This document shows, in pieces, positions 1-24,756 of a stretch of 24,815 nt of DNA (positions within the stretch are counted from its first letter, which is position 1; each line of letters starts with the position of its first letter). Made by a program: the position numbers and the translations under genes. The notes below the pieces were generated by a model that worked only from the letters and a program-made list of their open reading frames with translations, was not told where the DNA came from and made no database searches. Source of the stretch: a virus; the IMG/VR virus record IMGVR_UViG_3300047359_000408, positions 1-24,815 of that record; one strand, 5' to 3'.

Positions 1-115
1 CTGCTCTATCTGAGTATACACCTGTCCAAATATACAGCTCTAGTTTTGCTGTATGTAAAGATGAATTAGTTATCTTTTTGTAAAACGGTGATCTAGTATT
101 TATTATTGTTGACAT
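1..115 (-). CDS. Virion-module protein, N-terminal fragment
   Basis: The ATG at 113-115 shares its A with the TAA of the gene before it (TAATG), the usual junction in this genome, and the frame stays open to the window edge. The 38 visible residues begin MSTIINTRSPFYKKITN and continue with a segment reading LELYIWTGVYSD. I have a weak impression that openings of this kind occur in structural proteins of Bacteroidota phages, but no function can be assigned from this fragment. Its place directly after a gp10-like gene suggests a virion component. Most of the gene lies outside the window. Confidence 0.75.
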   Translation of the reverse strand, partial: MSTIINTRSPFYKKITNSSLHTAKLELYIWTGVYSDRA

Positions 116-699
116 TATCCTTTAATATGCGTTTCTATTGTGTAAGTATCTTTACCTTTCTTTTTATATCCTGCTTTAAGTAAAATATTGTCTATATCAA
201 CCTCAATATCTTTAACTACAGGTTTATATATGTCGTTTAATTGTTTAAACTCAGCATTTACTAAATCTGTTATAAATCCAGTTCTTTGTATTCCATTTAT
301 GTTTAATGATTTTTGTATTGCAAATGCAATTCTTCTTACTTTCTTAAAATCGTTTAATTGTACTATGTTTTTTTTTGAATCTACAAGTGTTTTGTTTTTT
401 GATATAAGCCAGTTGATTAACTTTTGTACAGGTGGTGTTGATCTTTTTGTTCCTTCGTCTACAGCTTCCCCATACGCATTTCCTGTTATGCTATAATTAT
501 AAACAACACCTGTAGTTTTTGCACCCTGAAGTCGCAAACTATCTTTTAAACTTCCGCTTGCATCTATAGCTCCTGTAATACTCCCACTTCTATAACTTCT
601 AGTTCTGTCAGCTTTTTCTATTTCTATCTTTGCTAACTTTAATAGATTCTTAGAATATTCTGCTAAGTATTTTTTTGTATTGTCTAGTTTAAAACTCAT
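115..699 (-). CDS. HK97 gp10-like head-tail/tail completion protein
   Basis: A 194-residue protein read from the ATG at 697-699. A TTG two codons upstream is also in frame, but the ATG shares its A with the stop of the preceding gene (TAATG), so it is preferred. The middle contains YGEAVDEGTKRSTPPVQKLI, like the segment of HK97-gp10-type proteins that precedes a helix, and the second half has NINGIQRTGFITDLV, a common C-terminal pattern of that family. Such proteins sit at the head-tail interface or complete the tail of siphoviruses. The family assignment rests on remembered patterns. The neighbours on both sides look like virion assembly genes. Confidence 0.55.
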   Translation of the reverse strand: MSFKLDNTKKYLAEYSKNLLKLAKIEIEKADRTRSYRSGSITGAIDASGSLKDSLRLQGAKTTGVVYNYSITGNAYGEAVDEGTKRSTPPVQKLINWLISKNKTLVDSKKNIVQLNDFKKVRRIAFAIQKSLNINGIQRTGFITDLVNAEFKQLNDIYKPVVKDIEVDIDNILLKAGYKKKGKDTYTIETHIKG

Positions 700-1190
700 T
701 AGCAAGGAGATTGACCATTAGCATTAATATCTGATATTTGATTGTTTGCTACTGTAATTGATACGTCAAGCGTCCAGCCAGCAAGTAGATTCTCAAACCT
801 GTCCTCAAACATATTAGCGGTGTAATCTGTATCTATTTGATACAAATCAGAAAACAACTCACCTCTTCTTAGTGCAGATTGTAATCCATTAACTACGGCA
901 AACTGAGTGTTTAACACATCTTGTTTGTTGTTTATGTCGTGAAAGTAGTTATTTAAATCTTTCTTATCTTCTTTAGTTTCATTTACAATATCCATGCATA
1001 ATATTTGTAAATTAAATACTACAACATGATCTTGAAATGTACAACTATTTACAATTATGTGAGATAATGGAAATATAGTTTGTTTAGCAAGATCAACTTC
1101 AAATATATCTCCAAATGTAACTGTGTTAACATTGTTGTTGCCTTGTAGATATGTTTTTAATTTATCTAGTATGTCGTAAAAACCTGTCAT
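699..1190 (-). CDS. Probable tail completion/terminator-type virion protein
   Basis: A 163-residue protein whose ATG (1188-1190) overlaps, as ATGA, the TGA of the -1 frame of the gene before it. It begins MTGFYDILDKLKTYLQ, typical of proteins that open with a helix before a beta-rich body, and contains IFPLSHIIVNSC and RFENLLAGWTLDVSI. Similar small proteins recur in Bacteroidota siphoviruses between the tail chaperone-like and gp10-like genes and are usually called tail completion or hypothetical. No enzymatic motif is visible. The tail-terminator role is inferred from size and position only. Confidence 0.45.
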   Translation of the reverse strand: MTGFYDILDKLKTYLQGNNNVNTVTFGDIFEVDLAKQTIFPLSHIIVNSCTFQDHVVVFNLQILCMDIVNETKEDKKDLNNYFHDINNKQDVLNTQFAVVNGLQSALRRGELFSDLYQIDTDYTANMFEDRFENLLAGWTLDVSITVANNQISDINANGQSPC

Positions 1191-1974
1191 TTTTTATATG
1201 CTTTTTTTATTTCTTGTTGTTCTATATCTATTTTCTCTTTTTCAAATGCTAAGTAATTTAAACATTGGTAGAGTGGAAGTTCGGTAACTGCATTGAAGTT
1301 TCTGACATCTCCTTTAGCGAGTGCATAAATTGATTGATACCACCCCCATTTTTTTCCAAATGCTTGTCTAGCGTCTGCATACCCTCTTTCTTCAAATTCG
1401 CCTCCAAATATTTCGGTATAGCTCCCAGCAACTCCTTCCCTAAATCGTAAAAAAAAACCATCGAACTCATTGCAACATCTAATGGCATTTCTTTCATTAG
1501 CTCTTGCGTTTCTTCATTAACCTTGTACGGTGCAATTCCATACTTATCTTTAACTTTAAAATTAACTGGACGATACAATACAGCCATAGCTTTGTGCATT
1601 TTTTGCCAATCAGAAATGTTTGATTCAATATCTACATATTCGCCAAGTGTGATGTCGTCAAGTTTGGGTATAAATCCCATATCAACATCAAGCAAGTCAA
1701 ATCTTTGCACAAGCTTAGGTTTTTCTTGAAATGCCTTATTTAATATTTCTAGTATTTTATTGTATTCGTTTAACGGTATCTTGCTTACATCAATAAGAGA
1801 TACGTTACAAAATATCTCAACAAGTTTCATGTTTAAGAAATCCATTACCTGATCTTGATCTTCGGCATCTTCTATTTTATTTTGCTCTAAGATTTTCATA
1901 TACTTTTGGTATTGCCAAAGTTTAATGTCAGATAGAGTTGTTGGTACTTCTAGTTCAATTTGTTTTAGTGCCAT
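1187..1974 (-). CDS. Tail assembly chaperone-like protein, predicted -1 frameshift product (262 aa)
   Basis: This is the fusion predicted if ribosomes slip at the heptamer A_AAA_AAT (1348-1354). Residues 1-209 are in the zero frame. The reading then continues for 53 codons in the -1 frame, beginning WGWYQSIYALAKGDVRNF and ending at TGA 1187-1189, which overlaps the next gene's ATG as ATGA. The -1 segment looks like real protein: W-x-W-Y, SIYALAKGD, then LPLYQCLNYLAFEKEK and a charged helix. The G/GT tail chaperones of siphoviruses use the same arrangement of a slippery site near the 3' end of the upstream frame. An alternative is that the A7 run is a sequencing error and only the 262-residue form exists. 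Confidence 0.6.
1258..1974 (-). CDS. Tail assembly chaperone-like protein, zero-frame product (238 aa)
   Basis: Starts at ATG 1972-1974 with MALKQIELEVPTTLSDIKLW and ends at TAA 1258. The body is helical and acidic, with LVEIFCNVSLIDV near residues 52-64, and FQEKPKLVQRFDLLDVDMGF and DDITLGEYVDIE in the middle. I remember proteins of this appearance from flavobacterial and marine phages without a firm function. The G/T-type chaperone reading rests on the slippery site near codon 208 and the neighbouring tail-type genes. The last 29 zero-frame residues (from GGGINQF) look less protein-like than the overlapping -1 frame. The gene is preceded by a 17-bp repeat array and no host-type promoter is seen. 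Confidence 0.6.
   Translation of the reverse strand: MALKQIELEVPTTLSDIKLWQYQKYMKILEQNKIEDAEDQDQVMDFLNMKLVEIFCNVSLIDVSKIPLNEYNKILEILNKAFQEKPKLVQRFDLLDVDMGFIPKLDDITLGEYVDIESNISDWQKMHKAMAVLYRPVNFKVKDKYGIAPYKVNEETQELMKEMPLDVAMSSMVFFYDLGKELLGAIPKYLEANLKKEGMQTLDKHLEKNGGGINQFMHSLKEMSETSMQLPNFHSTNV
1348..1354 (-). other. Slippery heptamer A_AAA_AAT for -1 frameshifting
   Basis: On the minus strand the zero frame reads GAA AAA AAT GGG GGT. The last A of GAA plus AAA AAT makes a canonical X_XXY_YYZ site inside a run of seven A. It is followed directly by a G-rich stretch (GGGGGTGG). After slippage the next codon is TGG and the frame stays open for 53 codons to a TGA coupled to the next gene. I did not find a clear downstream pseudoknot or hairpin by eye. 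Confidence 0.6.
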
Positions 1975-6635: not shown

Positions 6636-7133
6636 CTAAAAAACTTGAGTTATCTCTAATAAATCTGTTTTTTCAGTAACATAAGCCATGACTCTAGTCA
6701 TTCTCAGTTTAGATTTATCAAAAACCATTTCGTTTGTGGCAAACCCTTCAAATCTATATCTAGGGTATATGCAACTAAACAGAGCAAACAAATTACAATC
6801 TGTTTTGGCATAGGCAGGTATCATCAAAGGATTTTTATGATTTCTATTAACTTTCACATCAATAGTTTTGCCTTTGTATATAGCATCATAATTGTCAGTT
6901 CCATTTACTTTAGACGTATTATGTATTTTAAAGTCAGGGTATAGATTTAGTTCTCTACAAAATATAAACTCAGCACCAAACCCCACAATATCTAAATCTA
7001 ATTCTCCAGTTTCGTTTACTGTTTTATGACCATGCCAACCTGTATCTCTTTTGTTTTTATCTCTTTGATATGCACTTAGTTCAACAATTTGTTGTTCGTA
7101 CTTGTCTAATATGTAAACGTTTCCTATCTTCAT
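6636..7133 (-). CDS. Candidate PD-(D/E)XK-fold nuclease next to terminase
   Basis: A 165-residue protein starting MKIGNVYILDKYEQQIVELS. Around residues 51-95 it has GFGAEFIFCRELNL (E55), then NYDAIYKGKT (D83) and IDVKVNR (D92, K94). This order of a helix with Glu, a strand with Asp and a D-x-K strand is the restriction-endonuclease-like (PD-(D/E)XK) arrangement. I have seen no name for this family. It starts 3 nt after the large terminase stop and is the last gene of its operon, so it may act in DNA processing or packaging, or degrade host DNA. Assignment rests on motif order only. Confidence 0.6.
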   Translation of the reverse strand: MKIGNVYILDKYEQQIVELSAYQRDKNKRDTGWHGHKTVNETGELDLDIVGFGAEFIFCRELNLYPDFKIHNTSKVNGTDNYDAIYKGKTIDVKVNRNHKNPLMIPAYAKTDCNLFALFSCIYPRYRFEGFATNEMVFDKSKLRMTRVMAYVTEKTDLLEITQVF

Positions 7134-18423: not shown

Positions 18424-21400
18424 TTATTTTTTTAATTGTTTAATTTCTTGTTTTAAACTATCAACTTCTGCTTTTAATTCTTTTATAGCTTCTATAAATA
18501 CACCAGCCATATTACCATAAGCAACAGAGTGCTTATCCTCATCATCAATACTTACAACCTCTGGCAACACCTCTAAAACTTCTTGTGCAATAACACCAAT
18601 TTTAGTTGATTTATCATCAATATCTTTTCTGGTATATGTAACACCTCTTAATTGTGTAACCTTATCTAGTGCATTGTCAACAGTAACAATGTTTTCTTTT
18701 ATTCTACGATCAGAAAAAGCTATAACATCACTTGTGGCTCTTATTGTACCAGAAACATCACAAGTATATGTTGATCCTGGCAATGTTGTATCACCTTCTC
18801 CATAACCTAATCTAAGTGAATGTGCTATTGTAAATTTACCTTGAGTAGTACAAGCAAAAGCACCTTGAGAATTTGTATGACCAGTATCACCCCACCAAAA
18901 ACCTCTTGCTGATGTATTGCTCATTTGACAAGTTATGGCATAACCATTTAACCCACCAAATGTATGAGTAGTTTGCATACCAAAACCATAAGTAGAACCT
19001 GACCATACTGAAATCTTAACCCTTTGGTTTACAGCTTTTGTCTCAACTAAATTAGTTAACAATTTTAATGTACTTGCTGAACGAGTACCAGACATTATCA
19101 GAGTACCATTATCAACACCATTATGTCCCCACATACCCCATTCACCATTTCCTATTTGTGTTAATAAGCCATTAACGCCACTAGGTAAAGATGTACCACC
19201 ACCTCTATAACCAAGTGACATTCCATAAGCATTTTTTGCTCCAGTTGTTGAATTGTGTTCAGCAAAGAATATTCTACCAGAACCTTCGCCATCAGTACCA
19301 GTATTGCCCTCAATAGTACAGAATCTTCCATTTACATTTGCTCCATTGCCAGGTATTCCAAAATTCATTGTGCCACCCTTAACTAAAACAGTTTGACCAG
19401 TTCCATTGTTTAAATCAACAGTTCCACTATTATTAATTTTTAAACCTACTAAATTTGCTGTATTTGTAAAACTAAAAGCACCTAATGAATCCATTGAAAT
19501 TTTAGGATGTCCAGATGATGCGCTTGTGTTAAAACCTATATAGCTGTTGTTTGTTAAAAACATATTGCCATTAACCTGTAACTCCTCAGCACCACTAACT
19601 CCTTTAATTCCAACATTACCAGTAACTCTATCTATCTCAAATGAATTAACACCTCCAGCACTATTATTATGTGTTGTTATTGCAAATTTATTTGCTGAGC
19701 CATCATTAACTAAAGCATAACCATAAGTCATTACACCAGAGGCATTAATTGATTCACCTAGTTCTAATTTAGAACTTTCATTACTACCTGCACCACCAAT
19801 TCGCATTGTTGATGATTGACCATTAGAAGAACTATAATTCTGAAAATCAAAATCTACTTTTGGTGATTGTTCATTAACACCAAATCTATAATCATCGTTG
19901 CTATGCTGTTTAATTGTAATTAATCTAGTGTGAACACCCCCAGATGTTGATAATCCTATATGACCAATACCCCTATCGCTATTTGCTCGACCACCCTCAA
20001 GCACCATACCTCTATCATTAGAATGATTTATAATTATTGCAGCACCAGTATTATCAGCATCTGCACCAGCTTGAAACCTTGCGGTTAATCTAAATTCACC
20101 ATTAGCGCCAGCACCTAAAACATGTAATCTTGGCGGAACAGAACCAAAGTCGTTATTAGTTGGAACAGCAATAGCAACTCCTAAATTGCCACCATTAAAA
20201 TAAGTATCGCCATAACTTCTAATCAAAAAACCACCACCGCCAATACCCTTAACAACACCGCCACTTGAATTAGCTTCAAATCTAGCATAATGTGTTGAAT
20301 CGTATTCTGATGTGACTGTATTGGTTGAAGTACCTACTGCTTTAATATCATGATTACTTGCGGTTATATCAGTATAAAAGGTTGATGTATTGTCATTAAT
20401 AATTAACCTGTTATTCCCATTATGCACTCCCCTAACTCCAAATACCAAACTCGCACTAGCAGCAGTATTGCCGTTTGTAATATATACATTACCAGCTCTG
20501 TTACCCATTATTCCATAGCCAGTTACTCTTAATTGATCATCTGTTCCAGTTACATTACCAGCCGCATCAACACCATCTATTATTACATTGTTATCACATA
20601 TTATATAACCCTGTAAATCCATGTTACCGCTGTCATTTATAGTCATTAAATTAGAACCAGTAGTAGATGATTGACCATTGTGCTTTAAACTAAAAACATT
20701 TCCAACACCATTATCATTACTGTCAATCATTAAAGTCATGTTGCCACCAGATTTAAAGAAACCAGTTTGTAATTGATTGTTAGTATCTTGCAGTTGTATT
20801 ACCTGAGTAGCGCCAATAAGTACACTACCACCTAAAACGACATTATGTTCTACATCAATACTTAAATGACTTGCTCCAGATGTTCTAAAATAAAATGTTC
20901 TAGTACCTCCAGATTGCTGTTCTAAAACTGTATTATAACCATCTGTCCCATATCCAGCTGGCATTGCTGGTTTAAACACTATTGCATTTGTTGGTGTTAC
21001 AGTTCCACTTGTAGATGTAGTTTCTGATGTGCCTATTAATGACAAAATATTAGCACCTAGTGTGCCACCATCTGCTACTGCTGGAGTTTTAATATCTAAT
21101 AAAGCATCAGCACTTGAATTATCTGTACCTAAGCATAATTCTCCAGAGTGCAATAATCTCATTTGCTTTACACTCCCTTGTGTTCTAAAAACAATGTCTC
21201 TATCTGCTCCACTCGTTCCAAAATAGAAATGGTCGCCAACATTCATTATCTCATTTGAATCAATACCAATTCCAACGCTTGTTGTACCTACTAATAGAGT
21301 TGAGTTTGCCATTGTAGTTCCGCCAATAGTAGCTCCACTTCCAAAAACTCTCAAAGGTATTGTTCCATTAGGTGATGAACCAAATGTAGCTTGTGCAACA

Positions 21401-24400
21401 CCTCCAGTAGAAATACCTATTACATTTGCTCCAGCATCATAAAAACCAGTATCTGTATCACCTATTTGCAATGAGGGAACTGCGGCAGTACCAGATTGTA
21501 CATATAATGAACCATTTTGTATAAACACACCATCAGCGGTCAATTGTATTTTTCTTGAACCATTAACAACAAAACCTAGTTGATGATTAGCTGGTCGATA
21601 CATACCAGTATTTAAATCTGCTACAAAACCATAATCAACCTCTGCTGTTGATGCTCTTGAATAAGATAAAAAATTCCCCTCGCTAGTAGCATCACCAGAT
21701 ACAACACTAACTTGTGTTTCAGTAGTATCAAAATGAAAAGCGGCACCACTACCTATTGAGGTGTTGTCTGCATGAGCAAAATATAATGTACCCTCTTGTA
21801 AAGTTCCAGTTGTTATATGATCACTAAAATTTATTTTAGCTCCAACACCATTTGTTGTTGTTCTTATTTTTAAACCAGTATCTGAGGTTACAGTTAAAGA
21901 ACCATTAGCAGTAGTATTTCCAGTAACATTTATATTATTTTTAAAATCAACACTACCATCAGAATTGAAAAAAACAACATCTGTTAATGTACTTACATTT
22001 GTTCCACTACCATGTATTGTAAATGAATCATCATCTGCTACAAAATATTTAATTTCTAATCTGTTATTTGTAATACTATTTGTTAACCCAAAACCTTGAT
22101 TAGCACCTCTTAATAAAAGAGAACCTGAGTGTTCTCCTAAATCTTGTGATACAAGATCAATTTGAGATTCGTTACCTACCATTCTCATACCAGTAGTATG
22201 AGTATATGCAGCATAAAAATAACTAGGTGAGTTCCATCCACTTGTACCAGTCATATCAACTCTTGATGTAAATGTAGATACACCAGTAACTGACAATGTA
22301 TTTCTGCTAATTACACTACCAGCATCTAAACCACCTAAAGTGTATAAATTGCCAGATGTATCTAAAGTCATTGACCTTGTAGTATCTTTAACAAATTGTA
22401 AATTACCAGAAGCATTACTTAAGTCGTTAGGTGATTCAAATATTCTCCATAAGTTACCACCATTCCAATTTATACCTTCATTACCGCCAGGATCATTAAA
22501 TGTTAAATTATTTACATTAACAATGTTACCATTAACCATATCGATTTGTTGACCACCCATTGTAATACCACCAGCAAACGCTACTGTGTTTGCACCTCTG
22601 CCAATAGTAATTACATCTACTCCAGCAGCACTATTATCATGTCTTATAACTTTAAATTGATTTGCAGTTCCATCATACCTTAAAGTAAATCCATAATTAT
22701 CAGTCGATTCTCTTAATTGTAATTCAGTATTATACTCTGCTGCTGTTTGAATTTTTAATATTCTATCAGCTTCAATAGTTGTGTTACCAATAGTTTCATT
22801 ACCAGCCACAACAATATTACCATCACCAAATAAACTTAAAACATCTGTTGTATCGTTATCAACATCATTATGTAGTGAAAATTTCATGTAATTACTAGCT
22901 AGAGTTGTTGAAACGTAGTTTTTTATTAAATGAAACCTTGTTGTATTGCCATCATATCTACCTATTTTTATTGAACCCTCAGATTGATGAGTTGGCATTA
23001 CATTTAAATCAACAGTACCTTGAGCTACAAAATTGTTGTTTGCAATTAATTTATCTAAAAACTTAGATTCGCCATCTATAAACAATTGACTAGCTGTTGA
23101 ATCCCATTTAATACTAGCATCATCGCTATCACCAAAAGTTAATTCAGAATCATCTGTAAAATTCATATCCCTATTAACTCTATTAGGTATATCATTTGAC
23201 CTACCAGCACCAAATACTTTTATTAATCCATTACTTGCATGAGATTTTACTACAATAGCAATCTTTTGTACTTCTTCATTTGTTGCAGTTGGTTTAGTCG
23301 CTGTAAATTGCCCAGCAGTTGCAGAAACATATAACTCATCACCAACACTAAAACCAGATGTATCAATGCCTTGTACAGTTCCAAACATTACTGCTTTTCC
23401 TTCACCATCATCTAATAATGCCTCATTTAAAACACCTATTGCTGGCATTCGAGTATTTGCATCTGCTGCAACAACCTCAATAACATTTCCACTTAATGTT
23501 CCAGTGGGTTCTGCATGAACAACAGTACCTTTTGCTAAAGTAGCACCATGAACATTTTTAACATCAACCTCTAATCTTTTAGCTGAATCAGTACTTCCAG
23601 TATTATCATCAACATATTTTTTAGATGCTGCATGAGCATCTGCTGTTGGTGTTTCTGGAATAGTTACTTGACCACTAAAAGTAGATTCTGTTTTACCTAA
23701 TGTCAAAGGTATTACAGTAGCTTCACCATCATTACCACTTAATCTAAAACTATAAGTACCAAAAACACCTGTACCTTCACTACTTGTATCTTCTATGTAG
23801 TTAAAAATAGCAACAGTATCAGTTATTCCAATTTGTAGTGTTTGACTAGAGGTGATACCTAATCTAGTTATATTTAATGGCTGTGCATTTGTGTTAGTGT
23901 CTATAACTAAAGTTGTATCTATATTGCCTATTGTAGTAATCCTACCATCTTTTGTCATATTAAATCTTGTAGTAGAGTTGTCTTGAAATCTAATTAACGA
24001 ATCTCCTACCTCATCTAAACCAGTTATGTTAATTCTAAAACCAGATGCAGCGTTACTACTGTTTACTGTCATAACTGGAGCAGTACCATTAAAGGCAAAA
24101 CTATCAGAATTTATAATAAAATTACTACTAAAAGTACCAGTTGTTCCACTTATAGTGCCACCAGTAACATTTCCCTCTAAATTACCTGTTACATCACCCG
24201 TAACATCACCTGTAACATCTCCTGTAACATCTCCTGTTAAATTTCCTTCAACATTAGCCACAAGAGTTCCAACTGTATATCCACTATCACTAACATCAAC
24301 TGTTGTTGTTGGTTCTGTTGTTAATCCTGTAAATATTTTGAATTTATCGTCACTAGCATCATTAAAAAAACCCTTATACTTAACATTTGTAGAAACAGCA

Positions 24401-24756
24401 TATTTACCAAATAAACCAATGTCTAATATATTAGCGTCATTGTCTTTTGCTAATTTTATTAGCGGATCTTCTACAGCTAAATCTGTTACGTTTAAATATG
24501 TTAAAGTACCATTGACTGTTAAATTACCAGAAACGTCTAGGTTTGCACCTATTTTAGTGTTACCGTAAACATGAAGGTCATAGCTTGAGTTAGGAGACGT
24601 TCCGATACCAACCTGTGTGGTAGATACATAAAAAGGAGAAACGTTCCCAAAACCGTCTGTAAGACGCTTAGGAGACGTTGTTATATTACCATTGTCATTA
24701 AACTTAACAAGCGACTGATAAGTATCTTTTATTTTAGTATTCGAAAGTGTAGCCAT
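18424..24756 (-). CDS. Giant tail fibre with C-terminal S74 self-cleaving chaperone
   Basis: 2110 residues. After an N-terminal segment (MATLSNTKIKDTYQSLVKF) comes a long Gly/Asn/Thr/Ser-rich beta region with many repeated strand motifs (such as 'GNLTVNGT', 'TSGNL') and four tandem GDVT units near residues 174-190. The C-terminal domain from FSDRRIKENI carries the S74/endosialidase chaperone signature: Ser2015 with DRR-x-KENI, GVIAQEVLEVLPEVV and a terminal coiled coil. Cleavage before Ser2015 would release a 96-residue chaperone and leave a trimeric fibre. It is the host-recognition fibre by inference. Its ATG overlaps the upstream stop as TAATG. Confidence 0.85.
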   Translation of the reverse strand: MATLSNTKIKDTYQSLVKFNDNGNITTSPKRLTDGFGNVSPFYVSTTQVGIGTSPNSSYDLHVYGNTKIGANLDVSGNLTVNGTLTYLNVTDLAVEDPLIKLAKDNDANILDIGLFGKYAVSTNVKYKGFFNDASDDKFKIFTGLTTEPTTTVDVSDSGYTVGTLVANVEGNLTGDVTGDVTGDVTGDVTGNLEGNVTGGTISGTTGTFSSNFIINSDSFAFNGTAPVMTVNSSNAASGFRINITGLDEVGDSLIRFQDNSTTRFNMTKDGRITTIGNIDTTLVIDTNTNAQPLNITRLGITSSQTLQIGITDTVAIFNYIEDTSSEGTGVFGTYSFRLSGNDGEATVIPLTLGKTESTFSGQVTIPETPTADAHAASKKYVDDNTGSTDSAKRLEVDVKNVHGATLAKGTVVHAEPTGTLSGNVIEVVAADANTRMPAIGVLNEALLDDGEGKAVMFGTVQGIDTSGFSVGDELYVSATAGQFTATKPTATNEEVQKIAIVVKSHASNGLIKVFGAGRSNDIPNRVNRDMNFTDDSELTFGDSDDASIKWDSTASQLFIDGESKFLDKLIANNNFVAQGTVDLNVMPTHQSEGSIKIGRYDGNTTRFHLIKNYVSTTLASNYMKFSLHNDVDNDTTDVLSLFGDGNIVVAGNETIGNTTIEADRILKIQTAAEYNTELQLRESTDNYGFTLRYDGTANQFKVIRHDNSAAGVDVITIGRGANTVAFAGGITMGGQQIDMVNGNIVNVNNLTFNDPGGNEGINWNGGNLWRIFESPNDLSNASGNLQFVKDTTRSMTLDTSGNLYTLGGLDAGSVISRNTLSVTGVSTFTSRVDMTGTSGWNSPSYFYAAYTHTTGMRMVGNESQIDLVSQDLGEHSGSLLLRGANQGFGLTNSITNNRLEIKYFVADDDSFTIHGSGTNVSTLTDVVFFNSDGSVDFKNNINVTGNTTANGSLTVTSDTGLKIRTTTNGVGAKINFSDHITTGTLQEGTLYFAHADNTSIGSGAAFHFDTTETQVSVVSGDATSEGNFLSYSRASTAEVDYGFVADLNTGMYRPANHQLGFVVNGSRKIQLTADGVFIQNGSLYVQSGTAAVPSLQIGDTDTGFYDAGANVIGISTGGVAQATFGSSPNGTIPLRVFGSGATIGGTTMANSTLLVGTTSVGIGIDSNEIMNVGDHFYFGTSGADRDIVFRTQGSVKQMRLLHSGELCLGTDNSSADALLDIKTPAVADGGTLGANILSLIGTSETTSTSGTVTPTNAIVFKPAMPAGYGTDGYNTVLEQQSGGTRTFYFRTSGASHLSIDVEHNVVLGGSVLIGATQVIQLQDTNNQLQTGFFKSGGNMTLMIDSNDNGVGNVFSLKHNGQSSTTGSNLMTINDSGNMDLQGYIICDNNVIIDGVDAAGNVTGTDDQLRVTGYGIMGNRAGNVYITNGNTAASASLVFGVRGVHNGNNRLIINDNTSTFYTDITASNHDIKAVGTSTNTVTSEYDSTHYARFEANSSGGVVKGIGGGGFLIRSYGDTYFNGGNLGVAIAVPTNNDFGSVPPRLHVLGAGANGEFRLTARFQAGADADNTGAAIIINHSNDRGMVLEGGRANSDRGIGHIGLSTSGGVHTRLITIKQHSNDDYRFGVNEQSPKVDFDFQNYSSSNGQSSTMRIGGAGSNESSKLELGESINASGVMTYGYALVNDGSANKFAITTHNNSAGGVNSFEIDRVTGNVGIKGVSGAEELQVNGNMFLTNNSYIGFNTSASSGHPKISMDSLGAFSFTNTANLVGLKINNSGTVDLNNGTGQTVLVKGGTMNFGIPGNGANVNGRFCTIEGNTGTDGEGSGRIFFAEHNSTTGAKNAYGMSLGYRGGGTSLPSGVNGLLTQIGNGEWGMWGHNGVDNGTLIMSGTRSASTLKLLTNLVETKAVNQRVKISVWSGSTYGFGMQTTHTFGGLNGYAITCQMSNTSARGFWWGDTGHTNSQGAFACTTQGKFTIAHSLRLGYGEGDTTLPGSTYTCDVSGTIRATSDVIAFSDRRIKENIVTVDNALDKVTQLRGVTYTRKDIDDKSTKIGVIAQEVLEVLPEVVSIDDEDKHSVAYGNMAGVFIEAIKELKAEVDSLKQEIKQLKK
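18466..18714 (-). other. S74 intramolecular chaperone domain of the fibre
   Basis: Codes residues 2015 to about 2097: SDRRIKENIVTVDNALDKV, then GVIAQEVLEVLPEVVS and GNMAGVFIEAIKELKAE. In characterised relatives the Ser in [F/x]SD-R-x-K is the cleavage nucleophile; here it is present. The remaining residues to the stop (18424) form the coiled coil. Confidence 0.8.
24191..24238. repeat. Four tandem 12-bp repeats in the fibre gene
   Basis: Four near-identical 12-bp units (plus strand ACATCMCCYGTA type) encode four GDVT-type tetrapeptides in the fibre N-terminal third. Silent third-base changes in individual copies show that they are diverging. The copy number could vary between strains by slippage. 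Confidence 0.7.

Follow-up and report, generated by a model that had tools for sequence, protein, structure and literature searches.

In long-tailed phages, a frame change in the tail assembly chaperone gene is widely conserved, and the cases described in the available text of the source are ribosomal (PMC5009743). The G/GT pair of phage lambda and gp13/gp14 of HK97 each comprise a short product and a longer one carrying a C-terminal domain from the -1 frame, and the same arrangement is predicted for the locus analyzed here. Tail assembly chaperones of T4-like phages have reportedly been treated by Vladimirov et al. in 2022 (cited in PMC10885494). T runs over eight nucleotides are cited as sites of transcriptional slippage, with mxiE and Thermus dnaX as cases (PMC3711429, PMC1088944). 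Among the open-access titles and abstracts listed, we found none describing a tail gene pair recoded at a run of nine T.

The locus lies on the minus strand of the window, by which we mean the whole 24,815-nucleotide stretch analyzed (positions 1 to 24,815 of the IMG/VR virus record IMGVR_UViG_3300047359_000408). Its features are as follows.

1258..1974, minus strand: zero-frame gene, 238 aa, putative G-like product; stop codon at 1260-1258.
1449..1457, minus strand: run of nine T (T9; U9 in mRNA), the proposed slip site, with an in-phase T_TTT_TTT at 1456-1450.
1187..1456, minus strand: -1 frame counted from the slip, 89 codons (FFLRFREG...AYKK) followed by a TGA at 1189-1187.
1261..1448, minus strand: dual-coding overlap of about 63 codons, both frames open and constrained.
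1440..1442, minus strand: TAG ending the +1 frame soon after the T9 run; the product of a one-U deletion would be 177 aa.
1348..1354, minus strand: A_AAA_AAT, taken as the slip site in a preliminary description; Lys-Lys-Trp codons of the -1 frame, not a conserved slip site.
699..1190, minus strand: next gene, 163 aa; its ATG (1190-1188) overlaps the TGA of the -1 frame (1189-1187) as ATGA.

The zero-frame gene consists of 173 codons ahead of the slip and 65 that overlap the -1 frame, and its protein falls into phrog_32199, a PHROG of unknown function. A fusion (GT-like) of the 173 upstream codons with the 89 codons of the -1 frame would be 262 aa long. The preliminary description had correctly recorded A_AAA_AAT at 1354-1348 in phase with the minus-strand gene, the 53 codons (WGWYQSIYALAKGDVRNF...) that a -1 slip there would open and whose TGA overlaps the next ATG, and the filling of the gap after the zero-frame stop by the -1 frame. 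Of the 159 relatives whose ends are complete, 99 also have ATGA at the -1 stop. Upstream of the gene, a very AT-rich intergenic stretch (2030-2165) contains repeated TACACTATGTAATATAA-like units.

We propose, with a probability of roughly 0.6, that one gene gives rise to two main proteins by programmed recoding at the T9 run, via slippage of RNA polymerase, and that the two proteins play a role like that of G and GT. Standard decoding would produce the 238-aa G-like protein. Slippage of RNA polymerase on T9 would produce mRNA with one extra U (or two fewer), and ordinary translation of this mRNA would enter the -1 frame to yield the 262-aa fusion with a helical C-terminal domain, whereas loss of a single U would lead to immediate termination and a 177-aa product. 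On the model of lambda G/GT, the proportion in which short and fused protein are made would serve to build the tail around the tape measure protein.

To collect relatives, IMG/VR was scanned with the zero-frame protein (best 80 of 105 relatives taken) and with the 53-residue -1 segment (best 80 of at least 595 taken). These two scans gave 160 loci; with the window included, the 161 loci comprised 125 distinct ones, where distinct means not letter-identical and close relatives are counted separately. Locus sets from IMG/VR scans are samples rather than a census. A further scan with the protein of Nonlabens phage P12024L, together with three loci from metagenome-assembled genomes labelled Winogradskyella, Bacteroidetes, and Flavobacteriaceae, added 65 new loci, 49 of them distinct; a few of these 49 share contigs with loci of the first set, and L178 is P12024L itself. 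One search pattern of the P12024L-protein scan spans the slip Phe codons and permits TTT or TTC. From 190 loci, 171 of them distinct, 159 full loci remained after twelve had been left out for incomplete ends or for zero-frame proteins of at most 180 aa (L178-L180, the P12024 type, with a shorter overlap). The tests of dual coding, folding, T-run scarcity, Phe columns, divergence, and doubly silent sites are based on these 159 loci or on 56 representatives. Two more scans used DNA patterns for the WGWY motif and were therefore blind to the T run; they gave at least 239 loci and at least 230 distinct sites; four of these had too little upstream sequence (at least 150 nt needed), and 226 were usable. 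All sets, joined and made distinct, comprise 371 contexts.

All 159 plus-strand loci with matches to both queries (some contigs counted twice) place the W-domain in the -1 frame with respect to the zero frame; one locus (L149) was left out, its zero-frame match being absent at a contig end. Programmed access to the -1 frame is thus strongly supported by the comparison of homologs, and this part of the preliminary description stands; its placement of the site, and a canonical ribosomal slip on A_AAA_AAT, do not. Conservation of the -1 protein runs from the T9 run onward (FFLxFRxx...SYxxLF...FGKKWGWYQSIYALAKGD). To judge from this pattern, the -1 protein begins at the T9 run, about 34 codons upstream of A_AAA_AAT.

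The run itself is nearly invariant. T_TTT_TTT is present in phase 34 to 40 codons 5' of the Trp in 125 of the 125 distinct sequences, always within a run of exactly nine T, and each of the 49 more distant distinct loci has an in-phase run (T9 in 47, T10 in two). At the WGWY-motif sites, at least nine T occur 70-150 nt upstream in 225/226 (T9 in 200, T10 in 24, T12 in one). Counted over all 371 distinct contexts, 344 runs are T9, 26 are T10, and one is T12; none is shorter. Both Nonlabens phages, P12024S and P12024L, carry T9, and the window has no coding-strand T run above eight other than the T9 run (1457-1449). The one motif site with no T run (L418) lacks it because a stretch of about 50 codons, with the entire slip site in it, is absent from the gene around 6800-7060. 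In L418 the flanking frames are both still open, and the gap is a true deletion or an assembly error.

Of the 225 motif sites that have the run, 224 keep both frames open through the slip site. A +1-frame stop is found at the same offset in 170/171 loci, and 1-9 nt past the run in 218/225 motif sites. One run-bearing locus counts against our proposal: L455 (1-170) is the only one of the 225 with the W-domain in the zero frame, an indel lying between the run and the W-domain near the contig end. Where the borders of the run move, its length seems to be kept. A Ser AGT ahead of the run (L298, L367, and L387) removes an upstream T, and one more T is present downstream; with CTG after the run (L288 and L334), the run starts further upstream. 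All five still have T9, these loci being few and some closely related. Run length thus seems to be what selection keeps, as far as the sequences reveal it. Phase variation by run length was considered and rejected, relatives with T10 and T12 holding both frames open.

Past the slip, the zero frame extends for 50 to 90 codons (65 in the window) and the -1 frame for 84 to 94 codons in the 159 complete loci; in three loci outside this set, with zero-frame proteins below 181 aa, the zero frame ends 18 to 27 codons past the slip. We resampled the synonymous codons of one frame in the 56 representatives and asked whether the other frame stayed open as long as observed. By this test, the zero frame is expected by chance to be open in 0.48 of 56 and the -1 frame in 0.18 of 56. 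Third positions of the zero frame diverge less in the overlap (0.113) than upstream (0.263), and second positions diverge more (0.071 in the overlap, 0.025 upstream), as expected where second positions of the zero frame are third positions of the other. Judged by resampling and divergence, both frames of the overlap are under selection.

The same two proteins would result if ribosomes shifted to -1 on the in-phase U_UUU_UUU within T9, as in other tail assembly chaperones, a route that we consider possible but doubtful. The feature expected of -1 ribosomal frameshifting, an in-phase X_XXY_YYZ, is present as T_TTT_TTT in 125/125 of the first set and in 49/49 of the more distant loci, and ribosomal slipping is always possible at the run because any T9 here holds an in-phase T_TTT_TTT. 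Described chaperones shift on the ribosome (PMC5009743), and in E. coli U_UU.U_UU.Y counts among the efficient heptamers if a stimulator accompanies it (PMC4066793). The feature expected of transcriptional slippage, a conserved A/T homopolymer of roughly nine or more nucleotides followed by an ORF in a different frame, is present in 371/371 contexts. For a ribosome, T7 or T6C would do, yet runs of seven or eight T occur in none of the 371 contexts, and nine T's persist when the borders of the run move.

The third bases of the slip codons point the same way. Those of both slip Phe codons show no T/C change (159 and 158 sequences), compared with 10-25 changes at four other conserved Phe columns. 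In the second slip Phe codon, changing the third base from T to C would be silent in both frames (Phe in one; TTR/CTR Leu in the other). This doubly silent base is C in 0/158 at the run and in 33/181 at other such Leu sites of the overlap; among the 56 representatives, the figures are 0/55 at the run and 17/72 elsewhere in the overlap. With a stimulator in E. coli, the U_UUC tetramer slips better than U_UUU (PMC4066793), and therefore ribosomal slipping should tolerate C at the run. In addition, U_UUU_UUU is far less shift-prone than A_AAA_AAG (PMC5009743). No excess RNA structure flanking the run was detected in the 56 representatives (mean folding z near zero on both sides, -0.03 and 0.01 downstream), and alifold found no consensus structure near the run in the same set, the scope of this search being structures other than pseudoknots and Shine-Dalgarno-like elements. 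On these comparisons, transcriptional slippage appears favored over ribosomal frameshifting by roughly two to one.

The surrounding T content sets bounds on this argument. Some of the T's flanking the run are dictated by what the two frames encode. In the other ORFs of at least 100 aa, T runs are seen less often than expected (T6, 65 seen and 106 expected; T7, 13 and 23; T8 and longer, 1 and 7.5), and this scarcity says nothing special about nine because it holds at every length from six. Eleven other T runs of nine or more occur in 10 of the loci used for this count, none of them in a counted ORF (at least 100 aa). A point for transcription is that avoidance of A/T runs is visible from nine in many bacterial genomes (PMC1088944, PMC3711429). 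In AT-rich bacteria without avoidance of T9, slippage at such runs may be suppressed (PMC1088944). The hosts of these phages may likewise suppress slippage at T9. Elsewhere in the window, the gene at 705..115 has an A9 run on its coding strand (376-368). Among 142 loci with at least 1,100 nt past the -1 stop, there is no A run of eight or more in 121, an A8 in 17, and an A9 in four, which makes the run in the window probably a matter of chance.

It is very improbable that an independent start makes the -1 segment a gene of its own, or that the split reflects a sequencing error or a decayed gene. In the Nonlabens phages P12024S and P12024L, the recoded gene (L162:12010-12704 and L163:4001-4695) is annotated as two separate hypothetical genes (CDS 38/39 and 40/41), and an ATG, GTG, or TTG occurs in the -1 frame 5' of the Trp in 32/125 distinct sequences. 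Such a codon is lacking in the other 93/125, among them the window, where the -1 frame is open from 1513, and the stretch 5' of A_AAA_AAT (EFEERGYADARQAFGKK) is protein-like. Conservation of the -1 protein begins at the run, inside the zero frame; both frames are constrained, and the same layout occurs in hundreds of contigs.

Least probable of all, and hardly tenable, is the proposal of the preliminary description that ribosomes shift to -1 on A_AAA_AAT at 1354-1348: the heptamer is in phase in 32 of the 125 distinct sequences, window included, but is missing from 93 that keep the -1 domain, and the -1 protein is conserved far 5' of it. Other relatives have AAAAAGT (13), TCAAAGT (11), CAAAAAT (8), AAACGAT (8), or other sequences at this position. 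The A7 run is, on this comparison, a spelling of Lys-Lys-Trp codons in the -1 frame. Over 7,471 codons in 41 minus-strand ORFs, the window has 71 in-phase X_XXY_YYZ heptamers (Y = A or T), and the presence of A_AAA_AAT means little because six of these 71, the one at 1354-1348 included, are in-phase copies of it. An error in the A7 run, which had been named as the main alternative to a frameshift, is moot, the conserved T9 element lying about 100 nt upstream.

A tail assembly chaperone role for the pair, which the preliminary description had also put forward, is plausible. The gene layout fits a G/GT-type pair, with a shared N-terminus and a longer predicted product reached by a frame change. 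For the structural model of the zero-frame protein (mean pLDDT 79), VIA ranked the HK97 chaperone 2ob9 second among 120 aligned chains, with Z 4.1 and an rmsd of 2.4 across 62 residues; this Z is within the chance range, and unrelated chains matching other parts of the model rank level, so that we regard the fold match as suggestive, not decisive. With the -1 domain, VIA aligned five chains and gave one weak row. Foldseek against the PDB found no significant match for either model, the zero-frame model having none at E <= 0.001. Sequence comparison gave no match in the PDB with an A2 profile up to E 1, none by hhalign of single sequences against HK97 gp13 and lambda G, and no family of known chaperone function or useful function in Pfam and PHROGs. 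In BFVD, the 36 matches at E <= 0.001 are all uncharacterised or unnamed; among the 50 matches listed, two are named tail assembly chaperone (E 0.4 and 1.4). The earlier identification is thus matched weakly by fold and not by sequence.

The gene neighborhood was read in the closely related record G001, which encodes a 238-aa protein identical to the zero-frame protein of the window. There, four genes follow the recoded gene and are succeeded by a 707-aa protein that is tape-measure-like by eye (a coiled-coil-like start and a hydrophobic stretch); beyond it lie a protease of the XkdF type, a protein with weak resemblance to a virion structural protein, and a portal. The fibre seems to differ between close phages such as these two: the window encodes a fibre-like protein of 2,110 aa (18424-24756), and G001 has an ORF of 1,175 aa whose start is very similar (L171:14467-17994). 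In Flavobacterium phage 6H (L240:9586-10927), a weak fold relative, the frame ends just past a TTTTTTC, and a C-terminal ORF lies downstream in another frame; this break may be programmed or may be an error.

If the nine-T run is the selected feature, the same kind of protein pair would be reached at a different step, transcription. The family supplies hundreds of natural sequences for testing the run length needed, and its analysis exposes a dual-coded gene where named relatives are annotated with two hypothetical ones. We see close to an even chance that a large, mostly uncultured, apparently Bacteroidota phage group sets its tail-chaperone ratio by polymerase slippage at T9, with overprinted, constrained C-termini (about 50-90 zero-frame codons) and a third frame closed at once.

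Lambda slips on G_GGA_AAG and leaves six zero-frame codons, whereas the window has T9 and 65 codons left. The lambda pair stands directly before the tape measure gene and HK97 has one small gene between, whereas four genes precede the tape-measure-like gene here. No sequence similarity to lambda G or HK97 gp13 was found for this locus, and the N-domain matches the fold of the HK97 chaperone weakly. Like Thermus dnaX (nine A) and Shigella mxiE (a run of U), in which transcript length sets the frame at a homopolymer (PMC1088944, PMC3711429), the locus has a homopolymer at the proposed site; those two are not phage tail genes, and slippage was measured there, whereas here we infer it from sequence. 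Among named isolates, the Nonlabens phages P12024S and P12024L share the T9 run and the -1 layout at about 33% identity, the zero frame of P12024L ending about 27 codons past the slip compared with 65 in the window.
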